A stretch of DNA of 64,000 nucleotides from Gynuella sp. (GTDB taxonomy: Bacteria; Pseudomonadota; Gammaproteobacteria; Pseudomonadales; Natronospirillaceae), in contig JANQHX010000064.1 of NCBI GenBank assembly GCA_028282465.1, positions 1 to 64,000 of the forward strand, read 5' to 3'. Below are positions 6,785 to 25,404 of the stretch, piece after piece. The notes under the pieces were generated by a model. That model had not been told where the DNA came from, ran no database searches, and saw only the letters and a program-made list of their open reading frames with translations. Position numbers and translations under genes: made by a program. Numbering within the stretch: position 1 is the stretch's first letter; every line of letters begins with the position of its first letter.

Positions 6785-6803
6785 TCACTCAGCTGATGAA
6801 CGA

Positions 6804-6834
6804 GCCTACTCTTTATGAGTAGGCGATATTATTT
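6804..6834. terminator. Hairpin terminator between convergent genes
   Basis: GCCTACTC (6804-6811), loop TTTAT, GAGTAGGC (6817-6824). It overlaps the last codons of the minus-strand gene that ends at 6813; a loose T-rich stretch follows on the plus strand. Confidence 0.65.
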
Positions 6835-7388: not shown

Positions 7389-7598
7389 CGTTCTACTCCC
7401 TTTTGCTGTTGTAGAATTATGCAAATTGAATAGGGCAATCATTGGTGCTAGATCAATTAACACCCTAATTAGATACGATAGAACAAATAATTTGAGCGTA
7501 AAGCCATTTAAAAAATATGGGTAATGCTTACCAGTATTCACTTTATGGATGTAATCACGGGCTCCTGTATCGATAGCGGGACACAGTCATAGGAAGAC

Positions 7599-8480: not shown

Positions 8481-8513
8481 TCACGACGAGCGTACAGAGA
8501 TTACTCGTCGTGA
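8481..8513. terminator. Hairpin between convergent genes
   Basis: TCACGACGAG (8481-8490) pairs with CTCGTCGTGA (8504-8513) over a 13-nt loop. It starts right after the secreted-protein stop codon and overlaps the end of the convergent transporter gene, so it probably ends both transcripts. Confidence 0.6.
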
Positions 8514-9832
8514 ATGATCCCTTTTTGTAGCGGCACGAATAACAATGCAATTCCGCCAACAACAAAAAACGCCAAAATAACCAACAGTCCTTGCTGACGA
8601 CCTAATGAGTCAGCAACCAGCGCATAACATGTTCCGCCAAGAATTATTGATAATCTAAAAAACATCCCCCAAAAACCAAATAGTTGAGCGGCGTATTTTT
8701 TGGGAGATAATAGTCCAACAACCGTACGGCTCGCACTTTGTGTGGCACCGATGCCCGCACCTGCGATAAGTGCCAAAATAGTAAAGAATTTCTCAGGCTC
8801 CATGCCAGTTAACGCTGAAAGCTCTTGCAAAAAATAAATGCCAAGAATGCCAGCACACCACCATAAGATGGTGTAGAAAATTGTCATTTTTGCGCCGACC
8901 CAAGCTTCCAAAAACCCAAAAGACAAGGCACCTAATAAAGCACTGATTTGTAGTGCTAAGAAGATGGTTTGCTTGTCTTGCTGGGATACATTTAATTCTG
9001 CATCTATGTAAATTCCGAAGAATTTAATAATGATGGCCATGCCCGCCATGTAAATGGTGAAAACGATAAAAAACTGAAAAAGAATGGGTAACTGTTTAAC
9101 GATTTGCCAGGTTTCTGAAAGCCTTTTTAAGGATGCTTTAAACAGTGTCGGCCAATGAATGGATTCAAATCCGGGCTCTGCTTTAGAACGCTCGTTAACA
9201 AAGAAAAAAGTGGGTAAGGCTGCCACAAAGAAAAACACACCGGTGAACACCATGGCCCACTGATGTTGAGATACATAAAGTTCTAAATCAGTGGCCTTAT
9301 TGGCGGTGACTATGCCCATAAGCACCACCAATAAGCTAACCAAACCGCCTAAATAGCCAATACCCCAACCAATACCAGATATTCTCGCCATGTTTTTCTT
9401 GTTGGCAATGTCGGTGAGAAAAGCGGCGCAGAAAACCTCACCTAGCATCCAAGCGGTATTGCTCACTACGATAATAGATATACCTAACCAGATTTGACCG
9501 GGTTGAACAAAATAAAGGCAAGCCGTGAAAATAGAACAGAATAGGGTGAGTGCCCATAAAAATGATTTCTTTCTACCGGTGAAATCGCAGATGATCCCCG
9601 CAATGGGCGCTAAAAACATAGCCAAAATGGTTGAAATATTCATGGCGATAGACCAATAAATATCTTTCCATTCCGATCCTTCTGGTACTAGGTAATTAAC
9701 GAAAAACGCACTGTATACAATGCTGATCACAACGGTTGTATAGGCTGAGTTAGCAAAGTCATACATGGCCCATCCGAAGATTTCCCTTTTTTTCACAGGA
9801 GAAATCGCCGGTGCAGCAGTGATGGAGGTCAT
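8501..9832 (-). CDS. MFS transporter, UMF1/Atg22-like
   Basis: 443 residues with about twelve hydrophobic segments. The N-terminal signature EIFGWAMYDFANSAYTTVV is characteristic of the UMF1 group of major facilitators, which includes yeast vacuolar Atg22; later segments with GIGATQSASRTVVGLLSP support it. Bacterial members are exporters or importers of unknown substrates, often suspected to be amino acids or small metabolites. The gene is divergent from htpG. Nothing in the sequence defines the substrate. Confidence 0.87.
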   Translation of the reverse strand: MTSITAAPAISPVKKREIFGWAMYDFANSAYTTVVISIVYSAFFVNYLVPEGSEWKDIYWSIAMNISTILAMFLAPIAGIICDFTGRKKSFLWALTLFCSIFTACLYFVQPGQIWLGISIIVVSNTAWMLGEVFCAAFLTDIANKKNMARISGIGWGIGYLGGLVSLLVVLMGIVTANKATDLELYVSQHQWAMVFTGVFFFVAALPTFFFVNERSKAEPGFESIHWPTLFKASLKRLSETWQIVKQLPILFQFFIVFTIYMAGMAIIIKFFGIYIDAELNVSQQDKQTIFLALQISALLGALSFGFLEAWVGAKMTIFYTILWWCAGILGIYFLQELSALTGMEPEKFFTILALIAGAGIGATQSASRTVVGLLSPKKYAAQLFGFWGMFFRLSIILGGTCYALVADSLGRQQGLLVILAFFVVGGIALLFVPLQKGIIHDE

Positions 9833-9856
9833 TAGGTGAGTACTCGATTATTTATT

Positions 9857-9877
9857 TTGTTGGTATCTTGCCAACAA
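9857..9877. promoter_or_regulatory. Inverted repeat between the MFS gene and htpG
   Basis: TTGTTGG (9857-9863) and CCAACAA (9871-9877) with a 7-nt spacer, directly upstream of the putative sigma-32 promoter. It could be an operator for the divergent transporter gene or a 5'-UTR hairpin. Confidence 0.35.
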
Positions 9878-9882
9878 AGGTG

Positions 9883-9911
9883 CTTGAAATGAAGCAGAGA
9901 GTCCTTATCTA
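9883..9911 (+). promoter_or_regulatory. Sigma-32-type heat-shock promoter of htpG
   Basis: CTTGAAA at 9883-9889, 13 bases, then CCTTATCTA at 9903-9911. The -35 matches the sigma-32 consensus exactly and the -10 matches CCCCATNTA except at two positions. It sits 54 bases before the htpG start. HtpG is a classical RpoH target, so sequence and biology agree. Confidence 0.7.
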
Positions 9912-9964
9912 GGGCAGCAGTATCAAAAAATGTTCAAATTCAACGGTTTAGGAGAGCACTATCA

Positions 9965-11884
9965 ATGTCCGCCAGCGATACTAAAGAAACCATGAATTTT
10001 CAAACTGAAGTAAAGCAATTACTTCATTTGATGATCCATTCTCTGTATAGCAATAAAGAAATCTTTTTACGTGAATTAATTTCTAATGCTTCGGATGCCG
10101 CCGACAAACTGCGCTTTAAGGCATTAGATAATGACAGTTTGTACGAAGATGATGGCGAATTAAGAGTCAGAATCGACTTTGATAAAGACGCTAAAACCTT
10201 AACCATTTCCGATAATGGCCTGGGTATGAACCGTGAAGATGTGGTGAATAATCTGGGTACTATTGCCAAATCCGGTACTGCCGAATTCTTGGGTCAGCTA
10301 ACGGGCGACCAGAAAAAAGATTCTCACCTGATTGGTCAATTCGGTGTAGGTTTTTATTCAGCTTTTATTGTTGCTAAAAAAGTTGAAGTGTTTACACGTA
10401 AAGCTGGCGAAGACAAAGCCGATGGTTGCCACTGGATTTCAGAAGGCGAGGGTACTTTCGAATTGTCGGATGTGGAGTTGGCTCAGCGAGGAACCAAAAT
10501 TGTTCTGCATCTGAAAGAGGGTGAAGAAGAGTTTGCCGATGGTTGGAGGCTTCGTTCCCTAGTTAAGAAGTACTCGGACCATATTTCTATTCCCGTTGAG
10601 CTTCCTAAACAAGAAGCCCCAGCAGGCGAAGACGAAGAAGAGAAAAAAGAATCCACTGAAGTCGAGTACGAAGCGGTCAACGAAGCGTCAGCATTGTGGA
10701 CGGTGTCAAAGTCTGATTTAAAAGACGAAGACTACAAAGAATTCTACAAACATATCTCCCATGATTTCGCTGATCCAGCAACCTGGAGTCACAACAAAGT
10801 GGAAGGCAAGTTGGACTACACGTCTTTACTGTATGTGCCAAGCAAAGCGCCTTTTGATCTTTGGAATCGCGACGCATCCCGTGGTTTGAAGCTATATGTA
10901 CAGCGCGTATTTATTATGGATGAAGCCGAGCAATTCTTGCCATTGTATCTGCGCTTTATCAAAGGTGTGGTAGACAGTAATGACTTATCTCTAAACGTTT
11001 CTCGTGAAATTTTGCAGCAAGATGCCGCCGTTACTTCGATGAAATCTGCGTTAACCAAGCGCGTGCTGGACATGCTGAGCAAGTTGGCGAAGAAAGATTC
11101 CGAAGCCTATGAAAACTTCTGGGCTGAGTTTGGTCAGGTACTGAAAGAAGGACCGGCTGAAGACTTTGGAAACAAAGAAAAGGTTGCGGAGCTATTCCGT
11201 TTCTCATCCACGAAAGGGGATGGCAGCAAGCAAAGCGTGTCTCTTAAAGAGTACGTGGAGCGCATGCAGGAAGGCCAGGACAAGATTTACTATGTTTGTG
11301 CAGCAAATTACGACGCTGCCAATTCCAGCCCTCACCTGGAAGTGTTCCGCAAAAAAGACATTGAAGTACTGCTCTTAACTGACCGAATCGACGAATGGAT
11401 GGTTGGTCATTTAACTGAGTTTGATGGCAAACAGCTTCAAGACGTTGCGAAAGGCTCTCTTGATTTAGGTAAAACTGAATCTGAAGAAGAGAAAAAAGAG
11501 CAGGAAGAAGCTGAAAAAGAATTCAAATCCCTGACAGAACGAGTTCAGAAAGAACTGGAAAGTGAAGTTCAGGAAGTTCGAGTGACTCATCGTCTGACTG
11601 ACTCTGCTGCCTGCTTAGTGGTAGACGAACAGGATATGGGTGCTCAGATGCGTAAGATTATGGAATCGGTCGGTCAAAACGTTCCAGACTCCAAACCGCA
11701 CTTTGAGATTAACCCAACTCATCCACTGATTAAGAAGATGGATCAAGAAGCAGATGAAGACAAATTTGCTGACCTGGTTTGGATGATTTATGAGCAATCT
11801 CGTCTGGCTGAAGGCAGTGAATTAAAAGACCCTGCCAGCTATGTTCGTCGAATGAACAAGTTCCTGTTAGATAGCCTTAGCTAA
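9965..11884 (+). CDS. htpG: Chaperone protein HtpG (Hsp90)
   Basis: 639 residues, close to the usual 624-640. The GHKL ATPase domain shows its motifs in order: [16 protein letters not shown] near residue 35, [11 protein letters not shown] near residue 80, and [11 protein letters not shown] near residue 120. The middle and C-terminal dimerisation domains are complete. An acidic insertion around residues 218-228 (EDEEEKKES) resembles a charged linker. HtpG is a cytoplasmic ATP-driven chaperone that remodels client proteins with DnaK. A sigma-32-type promoter lies upstream and a strong terminator follows. Confidence 0.98.
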
Positions 11885-13117: not shown

Positions 13118-13369
13118 ATGTACTGGGAAATTGTTGAGCTTGAAGATGGCAGCGTTGCATTACGCCAGGTGGATGACGGTGGAGACCCAATGGTAACCAT
13201 TAAATTCTCTGACGAAGCCAAGCTCAGACTAAATGACCGCCATGTAGAAGTCGCCAAAGCCATGATAAGCGCTGGCATGCAGTCTGTGGGTGAAATAGAA
13301 GACGAGCATGAGGAGCTAGCTCAAGAAGCTGAGCACGAAGAAAATGAGATATACCCAGTTATTCATTAG
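13118..13369 (+). CDS. Conserved small acidic hypothetical protein
   Basis: 83 residues, opening MYWEIVELEDGSVALRQVDD, a short beta-rich domain, and closing with a very acidic helix (EDEHEELAQEAEHEENE). It starts nine bases after the DUF6586-like gene with AAGGA before the ATG. I recall a similar small protein next to the DUF6586 gene in Pseudomonas, which would make the pair a conserved unit. Cytoplasmic; function unknown. Confidence 0.62.
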   Translation: MYWEIVELEDGSVALRQVDDGGDPMVTIKFSDEAKLRLNDRHVEVAKAMISAGMQSVGEIEDEHEELAQEAEHEENEIYPVIH

Positions 13370-13421: not shown

Positions 13422-13695
13422 GTGCCCGATTAAAATGACAAAGTATAGGTCTCAGGGTAGAGCCTTTTAATTTGGGTTTCGGTAATTGTGGGGTGGAAGG
13501 CGTGTATCGCCGTTAAATTCATTCGGTTCATAACCTTGTTACCAGCTAGTCGACTCTTTATCCCATCCCATCCATTCCAGTGCGGGCACTCTGAGCAATC
13601 TGCCTGTAACAACTATAGTGTCAATCTTCTTGGGATGGAAAATGAAGGTCGCTGTAAGCTATCCGATGGCGCAGCCACGTTACTATAATAGCTTT

Positions 13696-14097
13696 TCATG
13701 TTGATTGATTTGATAGGCCTGACATTAACCAACAGCCCTTTACTAAACTAAAAGATACTGAAACATAGAAACCACTATTTGGCCCATGGTAAGTTATTGT
13801 TTTCTGAGTATCGCTTGGATCATCAACACTGCGTGATGCGCCATAATCAACAGCTACCCTATATAAGTGATCAACCAAATTAATAACTTTTTCCTTAGAC
13901 TTAGCTTGTAAAACTTCTTTTTGAAGCTCTGGCTCGTATTCTCCATTGATCAAGCTAGCAAACTGGAACGGATAATAAATAGAAGTGCCTGATTTAACTG
14001 AATTAACAATTTCAGTTTCGAAGAAGTATTGATGGCAAGCAGTTGCAAATGAGCTGGAACAGAACCAGCAGAATGTTATTAAAAAAAGATATTTCAT
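13696..14097 (-). CDS. Hypothetical exported protein (cassette gene)
   Basis: 133 residues with a signal peptide ending near SSSFATA (residue 19) and two cysteines in the mature part (ACHQYFF and KGCWLM) that could form a disulfide. AGGAGC precedes the ATG. It is the last gene of the cassette cluster in transcription order. No family recognised; it lacks the small-paralogue signature of its neighbours. The stop codon has no clear attC core, so this end of the cluster may be eroded. Confidence 0.55.
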   Translation of the reverse strand: MKYLFLITFCWFCSSSFATACHQYFFETEIVNSVKSGTSIYYPFQFASLINGEYEPELQKEVLQAKSKEKVINLVDHLYRVAVDYGASRSVDDPSDTQKTITYHGPNSGFYVSVSFSLVKGCWLMSGLSNQST

Positions 14098-14110
14098 TGT
14101 TGCTCCTTGA

Positions 14111-14190
14111 GGATAACGCTTGCATATGAGGCTTATTGGTTTTTTCCTGCGGAGCGGCTAATTGGCTTGCTGCACAGGGCATTGTTAAAA
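14111..14190 (-). other. attC-like site
   Basis: On the minus strand it opens TTTTAACAATGCC, the TAA being the stop codon of the neighbouring gene, and ends CATATGCAAGCGTTATCC. The last half closely resembles the end of the site at 17101-17190 (both contain GCCTCATAT followed by a GTTA core), which suggests shared ancestry. Inner pairing is imperfect. Confidence 0.42.
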
Positions 14191-14550
14191 CGGGTCATGG
14201 TTTTTTGGAAAATCTGCTAATTTATGTTGCTTGCCACAAGACCTGCAGGTTGCCCTAATAGTAAGCTTGTAGTTAACCAAAAAACTACAAGCATTAATAA
14301 ACTTTGGAAGGAAGTAATACAAGAAGACAAAAATAATTAAGCCTCCAGGAATTGTACGCTGACCAAACATACCTCTCTCTGTAATAGACCCATCTGCAAC
14401 CGAGGAAACTAGGGATACGGCCCCAACCCAAGCAATCAAAACGGCAATACCTAAAAAGAAACTCAGCAACGCAGTGAGGCCTATGGTATCGATGACGCTA
14501 GCCTTGTACTTGATGTTAGGTATTAAATATTTATTACAACACTTCTTCAT
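14185..14550 (-). CDS. Small membrane protein with C-terminal CxxC motif (cassette gene)
   Basis: 121 residues. Two hydrophobic segments (about 25-50 and 70-92) are followed by a hydrophilic tail with RATCRSCGKQHKL, half of a possible zinc ribbon; a second cysteine pair (KKCCNKY) is at the N-terminus. That could complete a metal site on the cytoplasmic side, which is inference. The TAA stop is part of an attC-like core. Function unknown. Confidence 0.52.
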   Translation of the reverse strand: MKKCCNKYLIPNIKYKASVIDTIGLTALLSFFLGIAVLIAWVGAVSLVSSVADGSITERGMFGQRTIPGGLIIFVFLYYFLPKFINACSFLVNYKLTIRATCRSCGKQHKLADFPKNHDPF

Positions 14551-14610
14551 ATTGAGTTTTAGAGCTTTTAGAAGATGCCATCATCTACGCGGTTCCACTT
14601 TTTAAAATTG

Positions 14611-15249
14611 TTAGAAGACCGAGCTGGATACTGCATGTGCTATGGCCTTCCCTAATGTTTTATGCTGGTTTTCATCTAAATGTATACCATCTACGACGCT
14701 GGCTTCCGTGACACTGCCTGCATTGAAGAAATGTGTCGAGTGTTCTTTAGCTACTTTTTCTAATTCAGAAGCTAAGCCAATACACCGTTTTTCAGCGCCT
14801 GCGAACTTGTTTGAGATATATCCTTTTGGCTCAATGATGGGTGGCGGGGCGATAATCATGATTTCGGGAATAGACATGCTAGGTTCGATTGGTGCTTGCC
14901 GAATGATGTGAATTAATTTGGCAGTTCCTTGTGATGAAAGCCATGCGTTATTGTCATGTGTGCATTGGAAATCATTTGACCCAAGCATGAGAATCACCAA
15001 CTTTAACGGAGAATGCATCTCGACAACTTGGGCCAAGCCTTGCGAGCCATCTCGCCCTTCTTTAAAAGGATCACCCCACGCTGTTCTGCGGCCATTAAGG
15101 CAATTCTCAATTACTCTGACGTTTTTTCCATCCTCGTTGAGAGTATTTTCAAAAACGCCGGGCCATCGTTTTCCAAATGGTAGACGCGCTCTCGAATTTG
15201 GAATAATTCCCCAAGTAAGACTGTCTGAATATAGTAAAATCTGGTCCAT
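14611..15249 (-). CDS. SGNH/GDSL-family hydrolase (cassette gene)
   Basis: 212 residues, cytoplasmic (no signal peptide). The SGNH blocks are all visible: block I LLYSDSLTWG with nucleophile Ser10, block III LGSND with Asn92, and block V DGIHLDE with Asp187 and His190. The block I Gly is replaced by Ser (SDS instead of GDS), which is unusual though the nucleophile is kept. The layout matches arylesterase/lipase-like SGNH enzymes acting on esters of lipids, sugars or small acyl groups; substrate unknown. The stop codon overlaps a TTCTAAC core. Confidence 0.8.
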   Translation of the reverse strand: MDQILLYSDSLTWGIIPNSRARLPFGKRWPGVFENTLNEDGKNVRVIENCLNGRRTAWGDPFKEGRDGSQGLAQVVEMHSPLKLVILMLGSNDFQCTHDNNAWLSSQGTAKLIHIIRQAPIEPSMSIPEIMIIAPPPIIEPKGYISNKFAGAEKRCIGLASELEKVAKEHSTHFFNAGSVTEASVVDGIHLDENQHKTLGKAIAHAVSSSVF

Positions 15250-15292
15250 AGTGATTAGTTACCTTCTAGTGCCTGCATCGAGCGTGTTGCGT

Positions 15293-15625
15293 CTAGCCTT
15301 TAAGATCAATTGAAATAATCTTTTCTCCGCCATTAGAAGGCCAGCCTTCCACACAACTACCGCTACCACTAACCCAGACTAGTTTTCCAGTTGTTTTGGC
15401 AACTAGTGCAACACTTAGAATTGCTTTTCCAATTTCAGTATTGGGATCTGCATAGAACACCTTTCCATTTCCACAAGATAACTCACCATTTCCATCATTT
15501 AAAAAGATGTATACTCGACCGCCCTCATGATCAACTGGAAAGACGTTAGTCACAGTGCCTTGGTACCAGCCCGCTACTGCGTTACCTGAGAACACTAAAG
15601 TCAAAAGAAGAAAGATTTTTTTCAT
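15293..15625 (-). CDS. Small secreted protein, paralogue family member 1 (cassette gene)
   Basis: 110 residues with a signal peptide (MKKIFLLLTLVFSGNAVA). The mature part is beta-rich and carries the signature shared with four other proteins in this window: ILSVALVAKTTGKLVWVSG, then Cys, then a terminal hydrophobic strand (KIISIDL). Two cysteines (LSCGNGK and SGSCVEG) probably form a disulfide. The size and strand order suggest a compact OB-fold-like domain, but that is inference. AAGGTAG precedes the start. Function unknown; likely periplasmic or secreted. Confidence 0.65.
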   Translation of the reverse strand: MKKIFLLLTLVFSGNAVAGWYQGTVTNVFPVDHEGGRVYIFLNDGNGELSCGNGKVFYADPNTEIGKAILSVALVAKTTGKLVWVSGSGSCVEGWPSNGGEKIISIDLKG

Positions 15626-15644
15626 AAAACTACCTTTTATTTTC

Positions 15645-15737
15645 TGCCAACGTTTAATTTAGGGGCGCCGAGGTTGCGCAGCAACGCTTTACGGCGTCCT
15701 GGCAGCGAAGTTGCGGTACAAGATTTATTTGTTAAGT
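15645..15737 (-). other. attC-like site
   Basis: Minus strand opens ACTTAACAAATAAATC, a perfect RYYYAAC core one base beyond the TAA stop, and ends TTAAACGTTGGCA. The centre is a GC-rich palindromic stretch (GTTGCTGCGCAAC). At 93 bp it has a typical attC length. The far GTT core is only partly canonical. Confidence 0.5.
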
Positions 15738-15738
15738 A

Positions 15739-16095
15739 TTATTTAGAAACTTTTAATCCACCAACTCGTGGATAAGGTTTACCGTCAACTGTATAGCAGG
15801 AAGATTGATACAGCATGACTTCAATTCCTGATACAAAAGCTGTTAAAGCAGCAGAATACATTCTATTTCCATCGTCCCAATCAGAACGAATGGTCCAAGT
15901 AGTTCCACCACAATCTGCTGAGGGGATATTTGTTTCCAACAGAATAGGGTATCCACCCTCTAAACCTCCCTTTCTGTACATTTCAGGTTGTACTGATTTG
16001 ATTAACCCCGTTCCTTTCCATCCGTCTTCCGCAACTGCTTGGCACATAAAACATAGACTAACAAAAAGTAAAGCTAACCTTTTCTTCATTTTCAT
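15739..16095 (-). CDS. Small secreted protein, paralogue family member 2 (cassette gene)
   Basis: 118 residues with a signal peptide ending in QAVAEDG (residue 22). Carries the family signature YSAALTAFVSGIEVMLYQSS-C followed by a final strand (VGGLKVSK), and an upstream Cys (SADCGGTTW) for a probable disulfide. Same architecture as the proteins starting at 15625, 17072, 58786 and 59207. It abuts a well-formed attC-like site on its 3' side. Function unknown. Confidence 0.65.
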   Translation of the reverse strand: MKMKKRLALLFVSLCFMCQAVAEDGWKGTGLIKSVQPEMYRKGGLEGGYPILLETNIPSADCGGTTWTIRSDWDDGNRMYSAALTAFVSGIEVMLYQSSCYTVDGKPYPRVGGLKVSK

Positions 16096-16148
16096 TTATT
16101 TCTCTCGATACGTAAACGCCCAGCTAAAGTGCGACTTTTAATGCATTG

Positions 16149-16646
16149 CTATGCTCTATTAGAACCCAAAATGTACATTAGCCACTTAAGTTGTTCTATT
16201 CGATTTTTTGAAAAGAATATGAATCCTAACGCCAGAGATGTTAAGAATGACAAGAAAGAGAAAAACATTGTGAACTGAACAGATGGTGCTGGTGGCAAAT
16301 TAGAACTAAGCGTTTTAAATAAAGCTAAAGCAATTATTGTAATAAAAAATGAAGCCCACCGTATCAAAAGTGCTCGCCAGACGTAACCCCATGTACCAAT
16401 TGTCTTTACACTCAATGAATTATCAACTAAATGAGTACGTAGGAAATTTACGAAGTATACTAGATAAAAAATCCAAGCAATTGTAACAATAGCTCCAATA
16501 ATGTTATTGGCCAACGTATAGTTCATAAAGTCTGGATTTGATAAAGCTACAGACACTAGCTCAATAATTATGATGATAAAGGCTGCTTTTTTCATTTCTG
16601 AATTCATTGGTACTTCCGAAGCATGACGACCGCCATAAGCGAGCAA
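16149..16646 (-). CDS. Four-helix membrane protein (cassette gene)
   Basis: 165 residues in the longest frame; the true start is more likely Met14 or Met18 (MNSEMKKAAF), at about 16607 or 16595, because the first dozen residues are encoded by the spacer palindrome. Four hydrophobic segments follow (about 20-40, 45-70, 90-112 and 125-150). No motif recognised. The spacer between it and the next gene downstream contains a possible degenerate attC (GTAAACGCCC near 16116). Function unknown. Confidence 0.5.
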   Translation of the reverse strand: MLAYGGRHASEVPMNSEMKKAAFIIIIIELVSVALSNPDFMNYTLANNIIGAIVTIAWIFYLVYFVNFLRTHLVDNSLSVKTIGTWGYVWRALLIRWASFFITIIALALFKTLSSNLPPAPSVQFTMFFSFLSFLTSLALGFIFFSKNRIEQLKWLMYILGSNRA

Positions 16647-16721
16647 ACTTGGTTTTTAGAGCCGAAGGTGCATTAAGTTTGTCCGGCACAGCTTGCTGTG
16701 CGTAGTTTTTGGCTTGTTACA

Positions 16722-17072
16722 CTATTGATTAACAATAGTAATTACTGTCATTTTTGGAGACTTATAATTGTTACCGAAAATATGGCAACCATTTGCCCAG
16801 CCTTTAATGTGCTTTCCAGAAGCATGCGCCGCAAGTGCTATTGAAAACATTTCCTTTTCATAAGGAGATTCGGTGTTAATTACCAGCGTCTCTTCTCGAC
16901 CAGGGTCACATTGCTCAGTATGTTTCTGATCGCCATTTGACTCGATCTTAACAACCATCATATTGAAATCCGAGACGCCTAGTTCCTTAATTTTGACGGG
17001 TCCGAATGGACTATTCGCACTGGCAGAGATGGATGCCATAAAAATTGCTATTGAAAATAAATACCTATACAT
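16722..17072 (-). CDS. Small secreted protein, paralogue family member 3 (cassette gene)
   Basis: 116 residues with a signal peptide (cleavage near SISASA, residue 19). The signature is FSIALAAHASGKHIKGWAN-GC followed by a closing strand (MTVITIVNQ); an upstream Cys (TEQCDPG) provides the disulfide partner. Same family as the other small exported proteins here. GGAG precedes the start. The stop codon is within a GTGTAAC-like core. Function unknown. Confidence 0.63.
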   Translation of the reverse strand: MYRYLFSIAIFMASISASANSPFGPVKIKELGVSDFNMMVVKIESNGDQKHTEQCDPGREETLVINTESPYEKEMFSIALAAHASGKHIKGWANGCHIFGNNYKSPKMTVITIVNQ

Positions 17073-17100
17073 AAATAGAACTCCTTAGTTTTATTTTAGA

Positions 17101-17190
17101 ATGTAACACCTGTATATGAGGCATGCGTTTGCTGCGAAGCAGCTTTAAATGCGTCCTGTGGTGAAGCCACAAACATGATGCTTGTTAGTA
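17101..17190 (-). other. attC-like site
   Basis: Minus strand: TACTAACAAGCATC at the gene end, a central palindrome (GCTGC-TTC-GCAGC), and GCCTCATATACAGGTGTTACATT at the far end, given here in part: the last bases carry a GTTA core. The far half is nearly the same as that of the site at 14111-14190. Confidence 0.48.
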
Positions 17191-17191
17191 G

Positions 17192-17572
17192 TCAGTTCCA
17201 CCAATTGAACAATCCATCACCTAAAGACCTTGGTTTCCAATACTTGACATCACAATCTGATAAATATGATCTACTAGAAAACTCCTGATTAAGTTCTTGC
17301 TTCGACAGTAAGATAATACCAAACTGCACATTTAAGGATTTAGTGATTAACTCGTTATCCGTGAATTCCAACTCGCATAAACTTTCGTCAAAACTCTTGC
17401 TTACGCACCAATCACCATTTTCTGAACAAAGCACAAAAATGGCATTGCTGTTTATCATCAGTTTGCAAACTTGGAAGTTAGGCGTTACTCCAGGGAAATA
17501 AAACGTCTCGACTGAAGCTCCAATATCATTTCCGAGGGCATATATAACTTTTTTAAATTCTTCTGCATTCAT
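17192..17572 (-). CDS. Hypothetical cytoplasmic protein (cassette gene)
   Basis: 126 residues with no signal peptide or membrane segment. Alpha/beta profile with five cysteines and a Trp-rich end (GDGLFNWWN). Its size and acidic composition are like those of immunity or antitoxin-type proteins, but no specific similarity is seen. It lies directly downstream of the caspase-like gene with an attC-like site between, so it is probably an independent cassette and not a partner. Function unknown. Confidence 0.5.
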   Translation of the reverse strand: MNAEEFKKVIYALGNDIGASVETFYFPGVTPNFQVCKLMINSNAIFVLCSENGDWCVSKSFDESLCELEFTDNELITKSLNVQFGIILLSKQELNQEFSSRSYLSDCDVKYWKPRSLGDGLFNWWN

Positions 17573-17582
17573 AAGTGAGGAC

Positions 17583-17627
17583 TACTAACTCCGCTGTAAA
17601 CTGTCCAATATCAGCGCCTTGTTAGAT
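17583..17627 (-). other. attC-like site, best example
   Basis: 45 bp. Minus strand opens ATCTAACAAGGCGCTG and ends CAGCGGAGTTAGTAG. The CTAAC/GTTAG outer and CGCTG/CAGCG inner blocks pair with unequal unpaired spacers (AAGG opposite GA), the R/L box layout with extrahelical bases expected of attC. The TAA inside the first core is the stop codon of the caspase-like gene. Confidence 0.68.
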
Positions 17628-19097
17628 TTCATCATTGCTAAACTGGCTTTTAATTAGACCAATAATTTCACTTTCAATATCAATTATTGCTGATCCAATC
17701 AATACCCTTATCTTGTCATGCTCCTTGAAACCACAATGAAGTATTTTCCATTCATTTTGATTTTGAATGCCTCTCTTATCCCAGCTCCTCTCTGTTTCCG
17801 CTTCATACTTACAAAAGACTGTAAGTTTAGACTTCGAAAATACATGTGTAAAAAATAGTCTATACCAGTTTAAAACTTCTTCTTTGGGCTTGAAAAAAAT
17901 AATAACTGATTGCTGTGGCGATGGAGCAGTTAATCGAAAGCCATCAATAACGTCTCTATACTTCGTAACAGGTCGGTATTCAGTGGTTTTATTAAACCCA
18001 AACCTGTCCTCTGAAACTATTTTTTCTTTTGCTTCATACTCTTCTTGAGTGTATGTCTCTGTTGCAAAATAGTTTTCCTCGGATTCCTTAATCCATTTGG
18101 CGATTCCTGTTAGACCGGTGATTCCTGAATAATCTTGCTGAAGTTTAATTTTCACATCAAACAATGAAGAAACAGTCTCGCTCCACTGGAATGAATTGAA
18201 CTCATTAAAGTATATTTCCAGTGACTCTTGAGCCTGATCTGAATTACAGTAACTCTTACTTTTCTCTCGAATTAGAGAAATCAACTTTTCTTCTTCGCTA
18301 ACGTTAGCCTCTTGTTCTACTTCTCCACTAGCTCTAAGTCTTGATACTTCTGTATCAATTTCAACTTTAAGACTGCCTCTCAAAGAGGAGGCAAGTTCAT
18401 TCGATACATTACAGAATATCTCAGTGTTATCTGCTTGCTGAATAAATAGTGGGGTTTGGTATTTCTTAACATTCACATCATCAGAAATATAATCCATAAT
18501 GTCTCTATACCTGATGTCTTTCCCTTCATAATTAAGCAAAGACATTGCGAAACTCTTTGTAAATACACTGAAGTCTTCTAAAGCAACAGAAGATTGATTG
18601 CTAGAAGATGAGAATAAGAAATAAGTTTTCTTGAATGATTCGGATGAAGACTTTTCAAAAATTGATCGTAGGTCTTTATTTGATTTTATGTATTCCGTTC
18701 CAGCCTGGCACGCATCAACCACTTTAATGGTTTGCTTCGGGCTTAGTGATTTCAACATCGAGTCAAACTCACTATTTCTTAGTGATGTTTGTTCGACTTT
18801 CGAAGAGCTAAAATCTGAGAACAAATATAGGAAGTCATCCGAGGTGCTTGAACCATGCCCTGTGTAATAAAAGAATATCTCATCTATAACATCATCCTGG
18901 TGCTTTCTGATGTATGAAGCAACTGTAGCCTTGAGCGTGGTACTCTTTTCATTACTATCCAATGTAAGGCAGTCATCATAGCTATCTGATCCAGAAATGA
19001 TTTTAGATATCATCTGTATATCTTTTTTGCATGGAGGAAGGTCAGATTCGTTTTCATATTTAGAAACGCCGATGAGTAATGCTATTCTCTTTCCCAT
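17622..19097 (-). CDS. Caspase-family (C14-like) protease with unknown C-terminal region (cassette gene)
   Basis: 491 residues. The first ~230 form a caspase-like peptidase: MGKRIALLIGVSKY strand 1, FFYYTGHGSS with catalytic His81, and KVVDACQAG with catalytic Cys130. Residues about 240-491 have no recognised domain; they are charged, with a helical stretch (EQEANVSEEEKLISL) and strand-rich end. Bacterial caspase-like proteins of this build act as cytoplasmic proteases, sometimes as effectors of anti-phage systems where a sensor activates self-digestion. No sensor or partner gene is linked here, so the C-terminal part may itself be the sensor (inference). The gene ends within an attC-like core, marking it as a mobile cassette; at 1.5 kb it is large for one. 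Confidence 0.8.
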   Translation of the reverse strand: MGKRIALLIGVSKYENESDLPPCKKDIQMISKIISGSDSYDDCLTLDSNEKSTTLKATVASYIRKHQDDVIDEIFFYYTGHGSSTSDDFLYLFSDFSSSKVEQTSLRNSEFDSMLKSLSPKQTIKVVDACQAGTEYIKSNKDLRSIFEKSSSESFKKTYFLFSSSSNQSSVALEDFSVFTKSFAMSLLNYEGKDIRYRDIMDYISDDVNVKKYQTPLFIQQADNTEIFCNVSNELASSLRGSLKVEIDTEVSRLRASGEVEQEANVSEEEKLISLIREKSKSYCNSDQAQESLEIYFNEFNSFQWSETVSSLFDVKIKLQQDYSGITGLTGIAKWIKESEENYFATETYTQEEYEAKEKIVSEDRFGFNKTTEYRPVTKYRDVIDGFRLTAPSPQQSVIIFFKPKEEVLNWYRLFFTHVFSKSKLTVFCKYEAETERSWDKRGIQNQNEWKILHCGFKEHDKIRVLIGSAIIDIESEIIGLIKSQFSNDEI

Positions 19098-19127
19098 TTA
19101 TTCTTTCCGTATTACAGTGTTTAGTAA

Positions 19128-19183
19128 ATCTAACGTCGTTTTAACGGGAGGCCTACTGCGGAGCGGTGGTTACGCCGTCTAGC
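19128..19183 (-). other. attC-like site
   Basis: 56 bp. Minus strand opens GCTAGACGGCGTAACC and ends CGACGTTAGAT, with a perfect GTTRRRY core. CTA-ACG-CGT blocks on both arms pair if single bases are left extrahelical. The opening core has G for A (CTAGAC). It lies between the APH-like gene and the caspase gene; 47 bases separate it from the APH stop. Confidence 0.48.
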
Positions 19184-19230
19184 CCGCATGGCGAGCGCTG
19201 AAAACCTAGTAGTATGCCGGTTTGCTCAGG

Positions 19231-20112
19231 CTAGCGAGCTTTCGCGTGATAGTCATCTATTATTTCTTGAACTACTCTTTCGACTTTATCTCGATCAGCT
19301 TGGTTAGAGTCAATACCTGACCATACAATCAATGCTTTCCATAGAGCCCAGCAGCGCCCTCTATTCCATGTGTGTATATCAACGTTTCTATTTTCTTTGA
19401 AAATTTTACGGCTACTTCCATTAAACAATGTCCAAGCTATTGCCAAATCACAAGCCGGATCACCTACTGCACTACAACCAAAATCAATAATTGCAGTCAA
19501 TCTGCCATCATTGGTTAATATATTGCCCAAGCTCATGTCACCATGGAACCATACCGGATCATTAGACCATTCGTGTATTACTGATTCTTGCCATATTGAA
19601 TGAATTGCCCTGGTATCAGTTTCACTCTCAAGAATACTAAGAGCAGTTAATACATCATTTTCGTAATTCTTAAGCGAGCAGCCCCTAAAGAAATTATGCT
19701 TTCCTGCTAATGGTGAACCTTCGGTATTTATACTATCTAGTGAATTTAGAAATGAAGCTAATTCAAGGGCAATCCCATCTAAATTTTCCGGACACTTATC
19801 TAGGAGGGTATCACCTATGATCCATTCATAGATTGACCAAGGCCTAGGGAAATCTATGCTAGAAGTTCCTTGTGCGACAGGTCGAGGTATTTGCAGTGGT
19901 AGTTTTTTTGCCAGTAAAGGTAGCCATTTCTGCTCTTTTTCAACTTGTGAAATGTAATCATCTGCACTCGGCAGCCGCACAAGCAATTTATTACCTAAAT
20001 GAAAAGTTCTATTATCCCATCCTGACTTCTCAACAGGTGAAACTTCTTCATTCTCCCATTGTGGAAATTGATTTTGAATTAGTTTTTTAACCAGATTTGT
20101 ATCTATTAACAT
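19231..20112 (-). CDS. Aminoglycoside phosphotransferase-family kinase (cassette gene)
   Basis: 293 residues. The kinase fold of the APH/choline kinase superfamily is clear: catalytic loop HGDMSLGN (His190, Asp192, Asn197), then the metal-binding IIDFGCSAVGDPACDLA (Asp210). N-lobe features GWDNRTFHLGNKLLVRLP give the nucleotide lysine region. The family phosphorylates aminoglycosides, macrolides, or sugars and other small metabolites; the residue pattern does not settle which, and most environmental members do not confer resistance. First gene of the cassette cluster in transcription order, flanked by attC-like sites on both sides. Confidence 0.82.
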   Translation of the reverse strand: MLIDTNLVKKLIQNQFPQWENEEVSPVEKSGWDNRTFHLGNKLLVRLPSADDYISQVEKEQKWLPLLAKKLPLQIPRPVAQGTSSIDFPRPWSIYEWIIGDTLLDKCPENLDGIALELASFLNSLDSINTEGSPLAGKHNFFRGCSLKNYENDVLTALSILESETDTRAIHSIWQESVIHEWSNDPVWFHGDMSLGNILTNDGRLTAIIDFGCSAVGDPACDLAIAWTLFNGSSRKIFKENRNVDIHTWNRGRCWALWKALIVWSGIDSNQADRDKVERVVQEIIDDYHAKAR

Positions 20113-20200
20113 CGGAGATACTAGTGAAATTATGGATTTTTAGATTATATCTGAGAGTTTGTTTAAGTAATGTTGTGAAGCATGTGTAAATTTGTTTTTA

Positions 20201-20221
20201 GGCTCGAAGAGCCGTTTTTTT
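20201..20221 (+). terminator. Terminator-like hairpin, orientation unexplained
   Basis: GGCTC-GAA-GAGCC (20201-20213) followed by GTTTTTTT. It would act on plus-strand transcription, but no plus-strand gene precedes it. It may be a leftover from a lost gene at the edge of the cassette cluster. Confidence 0.4.
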
Positions 20222-20266
20222 GTCTAGCAAAACGCAGTTTAGCGAGGCTGGAGTGTTTTGTTAAAT
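20222..20266 (-). other. attC-like site at the cluster boundary
   Basis: 45 bp. Minus strand opens ATTTAACAAAACACTCC (perfect RYYYAAC) and ends GCGTTTTGCTAGAC. AACAAAAC pairs with GTTTTGCT. No gene is attached on its 5' side before the GH26 gene, so it looks like the attC of a cassette whose gene was lost. Confidence 0.48.
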
Positions 20267-20306
20267 TGCGCGAATTCATAAACTCAATGCAAACAATATG
20301 ACTTGC

Positions 20307-20352: not shown

Positions 20353-23300
20353 TTATTTTCCTAGGATAAATCCATTGGCTTCTGTCACCATATTCACGAA
20401 GTGATTGGTAATGGTTTGATTCATTTGTACTCGTGAGTCGGTGTATTTGAAGTAGTTATCACCTGCTTGGTCGGCAGCGTTAGCCCATTGTGGTTGCGCC
20501 TTCCAGTTAGCGTTGATGTAGTGCCAAGCTTTCACAACGTCTTGATAGATTTCGTCGTCTTTGCTGTTAAACCAATTTAAGTCGTTGTGGGTGGTTACCC
20601 GGCCATCAGGGCTACGACCCGTGCCATTGAATGGCAGGGTGAAATCATATTGATGTCCCAAAGCGCCATGAGGTGTTGCTTCAGCAATAAATAGAGGCAA
20701 GCCTTCTGCTCGTGCAATGGCCGCTTCTTCGCCAATATCTGAATAGAATTGAGATACTCCAACCCAATCAACATATTGTTTGCCAGGCCAGTAACCTTGT
20801 TCGTTATTACCTATAGTGCCAGTGCTTCGACCTGTACCATGGTATGCATCAGACTGCCAAACATGAGCAACGTTTTTAACGTTCTCATTATCTAAGTAAT
20901 TACGAACATATTTAAAGGTTTCGCGGAAGTTCACATCAGACCAGCCGCCAGCGTCACCATTGAATTCGTAGCAAGTTCTCAATAAGAAGCCAGTGTCTGA
21001 ATGCAGCTTGAAGAAATCAGCAAGCTCAGTCAGTAGGTCGTCATAAGCGCCGTTGTTAAATAGCTGTGGCATGTTGCCATTGCTTGGACACCAAAGCCCG
21101 ATTGAAATCACTTCAGGATTATAAGTTTCAATGACCCATTGAACATTTTGTTCACCTGACCCCCAATGGTTTTGACGATGGCCATTATCATGACAGCCAT
21201 TTGCACTGTTGGAGTTGTAGTTGTCGATGTTTTTTAAACCATCCAAGCCCTTAAAGCAGTAAGATCCGTCGGAACTGCTTTGACCTCTGGCTAAGGTTAC
21301 GTACTTGGTGAATCCATAGGGCTTAGGCAGTCCAGGTACAGCCATGTAATCTTCAATAGACTCCTGGTCTTGCCCTAGTAAAAAGAATTGTTGGCCATTG
21401 GCAGGAATCCTTGGTTTAGCGCCAGCTGTGGTAGTGGTGTCAGTTCCGGTATCGGATGCAGTGCCTGTATCAGTTGCTGTACCAGTGTCGGTTGTGCTGC
21501 CAGTGGAACCTTGAGAAATAAATTCCACATAATCAATGTTCATAGCGGCATCGCCGTTTTGAAACACTAGTGCAAAACTTCCGCCTTCAGGAATATTAAT
21601 GTTCTCTTCAACCACAGCATAGTTGCCTACCCAGGCACCGGTCGCATTAAAAGAGATGCGTCCTTGAGTTGTACCATTTACTTGATAAGAAATAGCACCA
21701 CTGAATTCGGATGTATAACTAATGGCAACACTCGCAGTTGCTGGAAGATTATCAAAACGAATGCCGTTACCATTGCCGTAGGTATTTCCTACGGCCCGAT
21801 CGTTAGACGCAGCGGCATCGCCATGGGAGCTGGCTGTGCCTAACATAGCTGCTTCTTCAGCTTCTCTTCTCACTGTGGTTGCTACCGCAGTATCTGTGTT
21901 TGTATCTGTGTCAGTACTGCTGGTATCAGTAGCGGTGTCAGTTTGTGTGTCCGTAGCACTGTCGGTTTGAGTGTTTGTGTCGGTGTCAGTTTCAGTGCTT
22001 GTTTGAGAAGCCGTATCCGTCACTGTGTCTGTAGTAGTGGATGAACCTACTTGGATGTAATCGATACTTAATGGGTTGTCACCAGTTAAGAATATGATTT
22101 CCAGTTGATCGCCCTGATTAAAAGTATGGGTTAATACCGCGGTTCCATAGCTGCCTTGGGTAGCGCCAGTGGACGCTAATGAAATTCGACCGCCATAGCT
22201 TCCATTCACAAAATAAGAAACATGTCCGGCGGTATTATTTGCATAGCTAAGTATCACTGAGTCAGTTGCCGGTAGGTTTGTGAAACGTACACCATCGCCA
22301 TTGGTGCTGATGTTACCCACAGCAAAACCACTGGATGCTGAGCCATCAGGGAATGTTGCTGCATTACCTAAGTTTACGCCGTCCTCAGCTTCTAAACGCA
22401 CAGCGTCTGTAGTCGAATCTGTTGAGGTGTCACTGGCTGTGTCTGTATTGGTTACCGTGTCGGTCGCACTGTCGGTGATAGTATCGGTAGCAGTGTCTGT
22501 GTCTGATGAGGTTGACGTTGACGTGTCAGTATCTGTTGCAGTGTTACCGGTAATTTCATCATAATGTTGGAATCTAGCTTCAGTAACAGTATTCACCCAA
22601 CGAGTCATGACTTCGTTAAATTTATTTAAACGAGAGTCACCCCATTCATCACTTGGCCAACCTTGATCAACCCAATTCGTGCTGATGAAAGATAAAACTC
22701 TTACGTCGTAGTTATTCACCAACTCAAACAGTCTATCTAAATAATCATTGAAACCAGCCACTGTGTTTACAGCAGGAACTCTTGGGGAAGATTCAACAAT
22801 GGCAATGGGTTTATCAATACTATTAACCCAATCCAGCGAGGCTTTAACACCTGGGTTTAATCTTTCGTTGCTACTTGAACAGAACTGAATGCCATTTAAA
22901 GGCAGACATACAGAAGAGTTAAAAATACTGAAGCCGACAAAATCAACAAATTCATCACCCGGATATAAGGTTTGAACATTATCTAAATTGTGGGCGAGTG
23001 GGTGATAGACAAAGTTTAGGTTATCAATGTCGTGTACCACTCGCAGACGATGAGCAATGTGATTAAAGGCGTTTGCAAATGCATCGCCACTACCAAAAAT
23101 AGAGGTTTCTACTTCATAGCCAATTCGAATTAAGAATTTTCTATCTAGCTGACTTGTTATCAAATCGGCAAAGCGATCAATGTTTGAATCCATTTCACCA
23201 TTTGCGATACCCACTAGAGCAGCAGGTACATTGCTGTAACCACCTTCCGAAGGATTGTCTTTAATGTTGATGGCAATTAATGAATAGGATTCAGGGTAAG

Positions 23301-25404
23301 CAGAATTAACGGAATTAATATGTTGCTGGGCATTTGAATCTGTGTCATCACCCATACCACCGCGAACGGTGCCTGAATAAATGCTGCCATAATGAGAAGA
23401 ACCCGCCGGTGCAATACCAGAGCCTTGAATATACTGTTCGTATTCTCCGTAAACGTTTTGACCAATTAATAAGGTTGTTTTGCCTGTGCCTAAGTCATAA
23501 GACGTGTAGGTGTTAGGTTCAACCTGTGTGCCGGTATCCGTGCTTGAGTCAGTGTTGGTTGTTGAACCGGTGTCAGTATTTGAATCTGTTGCTGTAGTGG
23601 TATCAGAGTCAGTTGTTGAGTCTGTAGTAGTGGTTGTAGATGTATCCGTTGCCGTATCTGCAGAGAAGAATTCAGCATAGTCGATATTCATTGCAGTATC
23701 GCCATTTTCAAAAATCAACGCGAAACTTGCACCTTCTGGAATGTCGATATCTTGTTCTACTGTGGAATAGGTTCCGACCCATGCACCTGTGGCGTTAAAT
23801 GAAATTTTGCCTTGAGTCAGTCCGTCAATTTGATAAGAAATTGTTCCGCTGAATTCAGAGGCGTAACGAATAGCAACACGACTGCTTGCAGCAACATTGT
23901 TAAAACGAATGCCATTGCCTTCGCCATAGGTATTACCCACAGCCGATTGATTGGATGCGGCGGCGTCAGGATGTGCAGACGCTGTACCCAACATAACTGC
24001 ATTTTCTGCTTCAACTAATAAGGAAGTTAACGGAGCTGTACCGGTATCAGTATCGGTGTTTGAATCAGTATTCGAATCGGTCGCCGTATCAGTATTAGTT
24101 GTTGTGTCTGTGTTGGTATCCGTTGCTGAACCTCCGTTACCAGGTAGAACAGGGTCAAGTTGTACAGGACCTAATACAGCCTGGGTATTGGATTGATAAT
24201 GCTCTGTGATGGTTGTCCAACCGCCTTGACCTCGGTATTGATTAATAAGGGCTTGGGCATCGGCATGAGTTAAATAATGATACTCAGCTGACTGATTGGG
24301 TTGCACACCCATAATTGCACCGGCAACGGTGATTGGGCCCTGTTGGAAATTGGCTGGGTTATGAAGAGAGCGAGCAACCAATACCGCTTCTGCTTCATAG
24401 TTATTGGTTTTCACCATATCAATAACGGCTTGTAGTTCGCCATCAATATAGAACGCCATACCATAACCTGGGTCACCAGAAACCAAAGGGTCATAGCCTT
24501 CAGCTGTTCTTAAATTTGCAAACAAAACCCCCTGGGTAATGCCTGGCTTGTAATCAAGGTTTGGGTCTAGGTTGTAAGCAAAACCCGGAGTACCGAAATC
24601 ACGGGATTGATCCCCCCCTTGATAAGCACCCGGCGACCAAGACGAGTTGTGCCAACCGGGAATATGTAACGGATTTAAACCCGCTACCGACGAGTAGGTT
24701 TCAGGTACCACTGCATCTGGCCACCAACCTTCAGGCGCCACTGGTACAAATGCTGTGGCGTTTGGTTGTAGAACCGTTAACACCTGACCGGGTTGCTCAG
24801 TGCCTGGAAAACTTCCGGCGGTAATAATGAAACTACAATTTGTTTTGTTAATTGCTTTTAATCGGTCAATACCTTTTACGAACAAAGGCTCTTCGGTTGC
24901 AACCACTTGCCCATTTTGGAAATACAATCCGGCGTCCTGAATTAAATCTCGGTCGTTACCATAAAGTGCCACTTGATCACTTGGAATGAGTTGTTGATCA
25001 CCAACAAATGGCCAATTGTTTCCGTAAGAATAAACCGGAACATGACCAGTAAAATCAGCAGGAACACCAGAATAAACATTCATGGCTAACCCTGTTTTGT
25101 GATATGGGTTTGATAACAACCCGGGAATTTGACTTGGTTTTACGAAGCCTCGGTCTTGGCGCCAGGGTGCAAGAACATCAACACCTTCTGGATAAGCACA
25201 ACCTTCGTAAGTGGCGATTGGGCCTGTGCGGTTCAGACCATTACCATTGTCATTCACTGCTAAGTTAGGTGTGGTAGACGGGGGAGTACTTGGTACAGCT
25301 GCTTGCGACGTTGTCGATATTAGAGACAAAGCCATCAAAGAAGAAGCAAGTGCTGTTTTATGCATCTTATTTATTAACTTCATGATATTTCCCATGTGTG
25401 CCAA
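20353..25404 (-). CDS. Giant secreted glycosidase: two GH26-like domains and three CBM-like modules
   Basis: 1683 residues, exported (signal peptide ends near TSQAAVP, residue 35). Order: an unrecognised domain (about 36-420); Thr/Asp linker; CBM6/35-like module 1 (460-582, EAENAVMLG to MNIDYAEF); linker; GH26-like barrel 1 (about 630-950, IRIGYEVE acid/base Glu764, IVESSP nucleophile Glu871); linker; CBM-like module 2 (1000-1118); linker; CBM-like module 3 (1175-1298); linker; GH26-like barrel 2 (about 1328-1675, LRTCYEFNGD Glu1480, FIAEATP Glu1575). GH26 enzymes cleave beta-mannans or beta-1,3/1,4-glucans or xylans. Modules 1 and 3 are nearly identical, so one is a recent copy. A catalytic pair of glutamates is visible in each barrel; barrel 1 departs from the usual YEFxG. 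Likely extracellular polysaccharide degradation. Confidence 0.85.
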   Translation of the reverse strand: MAHMGNIMKLINKMHKTALASSLMALSLISTTSQAAVPSTPPSTTPNLAVNDNGNGLNRTGPIATYEGCAYPEGVDVLAPWRQDRGFVKPSQIPGLLSNPYHKTGLAMNVYSGVPADFTGHVPVYSYGNNWPFVGDQQLIPSDQVALYGNDRDLIQDAGLYFQNGQVVATEEPLFVKGIDRLKAINKTNCSFIITAGSFPGTEQPGQVLTVLQPNATAFVPVAPEGWWPDAVVPETYSSVAGLNPLHIPGWHNSSWSPGAYQGGDQSRDFGTPGFAYNLDPNLDYKPGITQGVLFANLRTAEGYDPLVSGDPGYGMAFYIDGELQAVIDMVKTNNYEAEAVLVARSLHNPANFQQGPITVAGAIMGVQPNQSAEYHYLTHADAQALINQYRGQGGWTTITEHYQSNTQAVLGPVQLDPVLPGNGGSATDTNTDTTTNTDTATDSNTDSNTDTDTGTAPLTSLLVEAENAVMLGTASAHPDAAASNQSAVGNTYGEGNGIRFNNVAASSRVAIRYASEFSGTISYQIDGLTQGKISFNATGAWVGTYSTVEQDIDIPEGASFALIFENGDTAMNIDYAEFFSADTATDTSTTTTTDSTTDSDTTTATDSNTDTGSTTNTDSSTDTGTQVEPNTYTSYDLGTGKTTLLIGQNVYGEYEQYIQGSGIAPAGSSHYGSIYSGTVRGGMGDDTDSNAQQHINSVNSAYPESYSLIAINIKDNPSEGGYSNVPAALVGIANGEMDSNIDRFADLITSQLDRKFLIRIGYEVETSIFGSGDAFANAFNHIAHRLRVVHDIDNLNFVYHPLAHNLDNVQTLYPGDEFVDFVGFSIFNSSVCLPLNGIQFCSSSNERLNPGVKASLDWVNSIDKPIAIVESSPRVPAVNTVAGFNDYLDRLFELVNNYDVRVLSFISTNWVDQGWPSDEWGDSRLNKFNEVMTRWVNTVTEARFQHYDEITGNTATDTDTSTSTSSDTDTATDTITDSATDTVTNTDTASDTSTDSTTDAVRLEAEDGVNLGNAATFPDGSASSGFAVGNISTNGDGVRFTNLPATDSVILSYANNTAGHVSYFVNGSYGGRISLASTGATQGSYGTAVLTHTFNQGDQLEIIFLTGDNPLSIDYIQVGSSTTTDTVTDTASQTSTETDTDTNTQTDSATDTQTDTATDTSSTDTDTNTDTAVATTVRREAEEAAMLGTASSHGDAAASNDRAVGNTYGNGNGIRFDNLPATASVAISYTSEFSGAISYQVNGTTQGRISFNATGAWVGNYAVVEENINIPEGGSFALVFQNGDAAMNIDYVEFISQGSTGSTTDTGTATDTGTASDTGTDTTTTAGAKPRIPANGQQFFLLGQDQESIEDYMAVPGLPKPYGFTKYVTLARGQSSSDGSYCFKGLDGLKNIDNYNSNSANGCHDNGHRQNHWGSGEQNVQWVIETYNPEVISIGLWCPSNGNMPQLFNNGAYDDLLTELADFFKLHSDTGFLLRTCYEFNGDAGGWSDVNFRETFKYVRNYLDNENVKNVAHVWQSDAYHGTGRSTGTIGNNEQGYWPGKQYVDWVGVSQFYSDIGEEAAIARAEGLPLFIAEATPHGALGHQYDFTLPFNGTGRSPDGRVTTHNDLNWFNSKDDEIYQDVVKAWHYINANWKAQPQWANAADQAGDNYFKYTDSRVQMNQTITNHFVNMVTEANGFILGK
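21425..24140 (-). repeat. Five Thr/Asp/Ser-rich linkers within the GH26-like gene
   Basis: Low-complexity stretches near 24010-24140, 23525-23655, 22415-22550, 21885-22045 and 21425-21505 encode TDTDTxTDS-type sequence. They separate the folded modules and resemble the linker of the adjacent di-heme protein. Acidic Thr/Asp linkers may bind calcium; that is inference. Confidence 0.8.

Follow-up and report, generated by a model that had tools for sequence, protein, structure and literature searches.

Gene cassettes apart from a retained integrase: a partly worn attC cluster in a Gynuella genome

Introduction

A run of ten genes on one strand, separated by palindromic spacers, lies between 13.7 and 20.3 kb of a contig of Gynuella sp. 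(GenBank assembly GCA_028282465.1, contig JANQHX010000064.1) and raises several questions: are these genes integron cassettes, where is the integrase that would have captured them, and how did they reach this place? The stretch analysed, hereafter the window, comprises 64,000 nucleotides (G000:C17:1-64000), that is, the first 64 kb of the 80,805-base contig C17 in a 4.48 Mb draft assembly of 110 contigs. An earlier note on this DNA had read the run as an integron-like cassette cluster with no integrase. Our analysis makes it very probable that the run is a cluster of attC sites lacking an integron integrase (CALIN), with ten same-strand genes and six or more sites belonging to the genome's attC family, the sole detected integron integrase being encoded on contig C24; the cassettes would likely have been captured by an integrase of this lineage and the cluster is likely an old, partly decayed side deposit.

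attC sites of the cluster

The attC sites were sought with a covariance model, R1, built from the genome's own repeats (19 attC repeats carried by contigs other than C17, with no sequence of the window) and not from IntegronFinder's attC model. The repeats were given the attC fold, with R boxes, L boxes containing one unpaired base and central hairpins. In this alignment, 91.5% of 496 cells are paired, versus 29.8-50.1% in slid versions; both partners vary in 19 of 28 pairs, 74 cells show double changes and none of 500 shuffles reached pairing values as high. Furthermore, in 20 integrase-side stretches of other genomes, R1 gave 82 matches at E <= 0.01, distributed in 17 of these stretches, and all 82 are located on the strand predicted by the direction of intI. 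These strand-correct matches in other genomes serve as an outside control on R1 as a model of attC sites.

In the 64-kb window, R1 found exactly six matches up to E 5 (18.8-55.9 bits; Table 1), five of them at E <= 2.4e-5 for 64 kb searched. All six are on the + strand, opposite to the genes, and located in the spacers between 13.7 and 20.3 kb, two of them running into the end of a gene by 1 and 6 bases. They display the properties of attC sites, namely paired R and L boxes, AAC and GTT core triplets, a stem kept by covariation, as seen in the family's sites on other contigs, and a position on the strand opposite to the gene, both triplets being present in three of the six. With at least two attC sites and no integron integrase adjoining them, the cluster corresponds to a CALIN and not to a complete integron, in which intI would be adjacent.

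A covariance-model search was the check that the earlier note had proposed, and its outcome agrees with the cassette reading, as do the attC and cassette sequences common to other loci that are described below. The individual sites named in that note fared unevenly, although all five cores are present where it had put them. Among the five cores that it placed at stop codons, those ending at 14190, 15737 and 17190 are the exact ends of R1 matches, the one at 14616 is weakly supported, and the one at 17627 belongs to the stretch held to be the best site (17583-17627), which is not significant with either model. The stop codon is indeed inside the core at 14190, 14616 and 17627, whereas at 15737 and 17190 it falls 1-2 bases outside the 7-base core. 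Three R1 sites, ending at 16722, 19215 and 20266, had been missed.

The training set of a second model, R2, consisted of 12 short attC-like sites of genomes other than this one, among them a site of a Colwellia metagenome-assembled genome (MAG) discussed below. Up to E 1 in ten sources of the Gynuella genome, 16 of the 19 R2 matches coincide with R1 sites. In the window, the top R2 match is the possible decayed attC at 14557-14616 (E 0.004 for 8 kb searched, E 0.1 for 204 kb searched) and the runner-up, 16224-16246 (16.4 bits, filters off), is inside a gene. A generic descriptor of R and L boxes finds sites in most integrase-side stretches of relatives, with 0-2 matches per shuffle. A scan against Rfam returned no family at gathering score, with only weak matches in the cluster, and a loose pattern, GTTRRRY...AACAA, was dropped, its matches not being above those of its reversed control.

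The integrase and the other cassette loci of the genome

The genome carries an intact integron integrase gene, at G000:C24:543-1637 (open frame of 364 aa). The TIGR02249 profile has a single match in the assembly, in this gene (G000:C24:693-1610, 389 bits versus a cut-off of 265), and none on C17; in 14 control genomes, it gave only matches below the cut-off. C24 opens with 83 bases of an attC site that is truncated by the contig end. The absence of an integrase stated by the earlier note therefore holds for the window and not for the genome, given the intact intI on C24. Of the two origins that the note had offered, capture by an integron elsewhere fits better, and loss of the integrase fails for the genome as a whole. 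Near intI (L002:3573-4242), two overlapping small genes have the look, by eye, of a Phd/YoeB antitoxin-toxin pair.

Over the whole genome, R1 has at least 31 matches up to E 1, on C71, C8, C103, C70, C46, C24, C17, C94, C89, C68 and C23; this list was obtained by scoring 150 of 828 first-look candidates, and two of the six window sites are absent from it. One training site, L063:2127-2222, had no match in this list or in the scan of own-genome sources. The window sites are akin to those of the other loci. Seven of the cluster's spacers show DNA similarity to the cassette contigs (E 3e-23 to 0.001), and an eighth does so as part of a shared cassette. For instance, 17100-17187 resembles repeats on C8, C46, C71, C103, C24 and C70 (best 81%, E 2.7e-13), and 17100-17190 is 81% identical over 88 bp to C8. 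On C71 are found the counterparts of 20192-20263 (92% identical to L060:11793-11864), of 16620-16722 (78%), of 14110-14190 (80% over 46 bp) and of 13641-13703 (81% over 63 bp, at L060:14869-14931, a stretch overlapping the attC match C71:34799-34928). Directly after the attC end, at 20266-20278 and at C71:34928-34940, we also noted a 13-base pattern, TTGCGCGAATTNA, with four copies in the genome.

Moreover, one cassette is shared: 14286-14596 has 90% DNA identity to L060:10451-10761 on C71, where a transposase gene (DUF772, L060:10767-11699) adjoins the copy of the 14185-14550 cassette. The possible attC between two genes at this place has the same triplet altered in both copies, TAGA in the window and TAGC on C71, so that the stretch with its already broken site seems to be shared between C17 and C71. 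This suggests, from sequence comparison, that segments of arrays and not single cassettes alone were copied or moved.

Seven contigs (C24, C46, C103, C8, C94, C71 and C70) carry cassettes at one end and other genes beside them; these bordering genes include a LysR regulator, a pyruvate formate lyase-like gene, a methionine synthase, ResB, AcrB and others. Since one array has two borders, there must be, judging from the draft assembly, at least three separate cassette loci besides C17 and C89, where the cassettes are in the interior of the contig. C89 (L066) harbors, at 6266-11408, another cassette-like cluster in the interior of a contig, in which two attC matches, both worn, were found; its protein L066:7316-7708 looks, by eye, closely similar to L063:2632-3000 of C8. 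The short contig C23 (L160) carries two worn attCs, 73-79% identical to array sites, between same-strand small genes.

Wear of the recombination sites

Three of the six window sites (those starting at 14110, 15644 and 17100) retain AAC as well as GTT. The sites at 16620 and 20164 are altered at the triplet of the crossover side, which is presumably the AAC of the attC bottom strand, and the site at 19127 is altered at the other one. Since only three of the six kept both core triplets, the cluster is likely old and partly decayed. Sites 17100-17190, 15644-15737 and 14110-14190 are predicted to be still mobilizable in trans, and those at 16620, 19127 and 20164 to be poor substrates owing to their changed triplets.

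In the complete R1 sites of C71, C46, C103, C8 and C70, the triplets are intact in 20 of 20. A contrast between worn dispersed clusters and an intact main array (4 of 12 versus 20 of 20 intact sites) had been considered and was weakened on review: several of these contigs border different genes and hence do not form one array, near-identical sites likely break contigs whereas worn ones assemble, and 19 of the 20 intact sites had been located via their triplets. Counted by position in the contig, both triplets are intact in 3 of 8 sites of contig-interior clusters (C17 and C89) versus 22 of 26 contig-end sites (p 0.017), the latter count taking in two C23 sites read by eye. Such wear of core triplets might act as a relative clock for cassette blocks falling from use.

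Origin of the cluster and alternative explanations

In the mechanism that we propose, an attC would be bound by the integrase as a folded bottom strand (here the + strand) and exchanged with attI or another attC; segments of arrays would thereby move within the genome. One of them would have stayed between the small gene 13118-13369 and the glycoside hydrolase gene 20353-25404, and would now be mostly silent. It may have arrived either through insertion by the integrase at a secondary site of the genome or through rearrangement between arrays. Insertion mediated by the integrase at attG sites has reportedly been described by Loot et al. in 2024 (cited in PMC11023631 and PMC12444791); it would put cassettes at genomic sites away from attI, and at this locus the upstream end is an attC without a gene.

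Several observations weigh against the reading as a CALIN deposited by the integrase of this lineage. At E <= 1, R2 misses all six sites that R1 detects in the window, and in the cluster the generic R/L-box descriptor does no better than on shuffles, so that the window sites are visible only through a model trained on the attC family of this genome. The base-pair controls of R1 leave the kinship among its sequences in place. No attC was found in the spacers 15250-15292 and 16096-16148, and three further places are weak, so that some genes would be in attC-less or decayed units. No empty site was available for comparison: the relatives, in which the flanking protein reaches at most 33% identity, are too distant, and a scan of named genomes gave none. 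The assembly, in addition, is a draft in 110 contigs.

The negative result of the descriptor and the spacers devoid of attC would be expected if the run were a plain operon or gene cluster whose palindromes had arisen by chance. This is hardly credible, given that the six model matches are limited to the cluster and to one strand, that its repeats and one cassette are common to other loci and that the relatives of its caspase gene are scattered across distant genera. It is also very unlikely that the cluster is a piece of a main complete integron set apart from intI by the draft assembly. Several cassette contigs do end in or near near-identical attC sites, and drafts tend to overestimate CALINs, according to PMC9024848. 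However, the cluster is embedded in an 80.8 kb contig and flanked on either side by ordinary genes, its sites are diverged, unlike the near-identical ones at contig ends, and C24, C46, C103, C8, C70, C94 and C71 each border other genes on one side, which makes too many borders for one array. The attC without a gene at the upstream end (20164-20266) is what a deletion would leave, and more than one integrase scores above the cut-off in some relatives; the cluster could thus be the remnant of a second integron that lost its own intI at this place, and not a deposit of the C24 integrase. We consider this unlikely, although it keeps some weight, since the only integron integrase match of the assembly is on C24 and the attC family and one cassette are common to other loci.

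Read as a CALIN whose genome still has an intact integrase, the cluster is real, partly worn and of a known type. A study of Xanthomonas (PMC12444791) describes CALINs away from a retained, distant intI and considers them mobilizable in trans by a functional IntI; the Gynuella cluster likewise stands apart from a retained intI and differs in genus and cassettes. Similarly, according to PMC9024848, a CALIN of IntegronFinder 2.0 has at least two attC sites, on average almost six, and no integrase nearby. The cluster is alike in both respects and differs in that its sites were called by an own-genome model. It adds a genome in which an intact integrase coexists with several separate cassette loci, the recombination sites of one of these being worn.

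Cassette genes and their surroundings

We selected, from the full list of open reading frames (ORF), ten non-overlapping ones on the minus strand at 13696-20112, forming a cluster of about 6.6 kb (Table 1). They correspond to the ten same-strand genes of the earlier note, which had also called them unrelated; this does not hold, since three of them are homologous (see below). When the ten proteins were compared by tblastn with 57 loci of caspase genes and with 40 stretches beside intI, taken in many cases from the same genomes, the caspase alone matched. Conserved synteny of the ten genes, which the note had named as evidence against cassettes, was thus not seen in these loci.

Table 1. Features of the Gynuella cluster and its flanks (positions in the window)
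Position	Strand	Feature	Evidence
9965-11884	+	Hsp90 gene	Flank on the 13.7-kb side
13118-13369	+	Small gene with a hairpin after it	Flank on the 13.7-kb side
13641-13703	+	Likely attC remnant, core lost	DNA likeness to C71
13696-14097	-	Last cassette gene, 133 aa	Profile searches without family
14110-14190	+	attC, both triplets intact, weak L boxes	R1 18.8 bits, E 0.04
14185-14550	-	Cassette gene, 121 aa, common to C71	Profile searches without family
14557-14616	+	Possible decayed attC (TAAC to TAGA)	R2 17.8 bits; R1 8.9 bits, E 2
14611-15249	-	GDSL-like hydrolase gene	PF13472 39.7 bits, cut-off 32.9
15293-15625	-	Small secreted family gene	Leave-one-out profile 46.9 bits
15644-15737	+	attC, both triplets intact	R1 49.4 bits, E 4e-10
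15739-16095	-	Small secreted family gene	Leave-one-out profile 27.5 bits
16149-16604	-	Membrane protein gene, weak MARVEL match	PF01284 26.3 bits, below cut-off 32.8
16620-16722	+	attC; crossover-side triplet GAC for AAC	R1 37.3 bits
16722-17072	-	Small secreted protein gene, predicted OB fold like AB5 B subunits	Structure model, leave-one-out profile
17100-17190	+	attC, both triplets intact, top-scoring site	R1 55.9 bits, E 7e-12
17192-17572	-	Cassette gene, 126 aa	ORF; profile searches without family
17583-17627	+	Short or truncated attC candidate (best site of the earlier note)	R1 10.6 bits, E 0.7; R2 6.7 bits, E 3.9, not significant
17622-19097	-	Caspase-domain protein gene (EACC1-like), 491 aa	PF00656 E 3.5e-16
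19127-19215	+	attC; AAC intact, GTT side degraded	R1 31.1 bits
19231-20112	-	APH-family phosphotransferase gene	PF01636 E 1.5e-33
20164-20266	+	attC without own gene; crossover-side triplet AAT for AAC	R1 38.3 bits
20353-25404	-	1683-aa ORF, glycoside hydrolase family 26 match	Flank on the 20-kb side

The APH-family protein has a top NCBIfam match of 51 bits versus a cut-off of 400 and therefore is not a named resistance enzyme. The caspase-domain protein is below the cut-off of NF047832 (64 versus 140 bits). An alignment of 24 homologues, of which it is one, shows H81 and C130, presumably its catalytic pair, to be invariant. At least 176 proteins (itself included) are homologous at E <= 0.001, and relatives about 45-57% identical are found in genera as distant as Psychrobacter, Vibrio, Acinetobacter, Marinifilum and Pseudanabaena; five plasmid records also carry homologues, with at most 34.2% identity. 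In the Colwellia MAG, a 58-base attC-like site (L082:6506-6563) starts five bases past the caspase stop codon. Among 16 of the 57 caspase loci scanned with the generic descriptor, it is the only site directly after the gene; shuffles of L082 yield 3-5 sites at the same threshold, and R1 has no match at this site. In 20 of the 57 loci, R1 gave two matches, one of them significant (L104, about 1.5 kb upstream of the caspase gene). The gene may thus, as a lead from sequence, be a cassette in Colwellia too, and the mobility of a caspase-type gene as a cassette may extend beyond a single genus. No paper in the partly accessible literature was evidently on integron cassettes carrying caspases.

The cassettes also reveal small secreted proteins of an abundant and little-described family. 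Of the ten genes, three (15293-15625, 15739-16095 and 16722-17072) belong to it, with respective scores of 46.9, 27.5 and 41.7 bits in leave-one-out profiles, in which rows at least 40% identical were dropped, the three proteins having been rows of the family profile. These profiles keep 12 of 12 own-genome rows, at 17.3-52.8 bits. The structure model of 16722-17072 (predicted local distance difference test score of 92.9) resembles AB5 B subunits, and the family profile reaches AB5 B-subunit chains by sequence, weakly (E 0.0013). The family is therefore predicted, from this model, to have an OB fold of the AB5 B-subunit type; the likeness is limited to the fold, and membership as a B subunit of an AB5 toxin is not claimed. 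Against Pfam, the window members had no match except Tli3, below threshold, and a relative on C103, L062:656-982, corresponds to DUF5992 (E 1.6e-32). A literature search on DUF5992 found nothing, and none of the partly accessible papers was evidently on integron cassettes encoding AB5 or signal-peptide secreted proteins; the terms OB-fold, AB5, pentamer and signal peptide are absent from the main text of PMC3548836.

In this genome, the family has 39 matches, 12 of them being profile rows, and many are without a detected attC; it is present in 11 of the 57 genomes searched, this one included. Since the same-strand family clusters of C6, C25 and C44 have no attC match, the family is not confined to recognizable cassettes; the family cluster of C23 has worn attCs. 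The integron of this lineage might have scattered a single family, secreted proteins with an AB5 B-type fold being captured, duplicated and spread, so that intact arrays, worn clusters and the attC-less clusters of C6, C25 and C44 would represent successive ages. We regard this scenario as quite improbable. Family members were noted at the window genes and at L060, L062, L063, L065 and L157-L164, and a broken member, with one internal stop, is located far from the cluster at 58786-59097, on the + strand.

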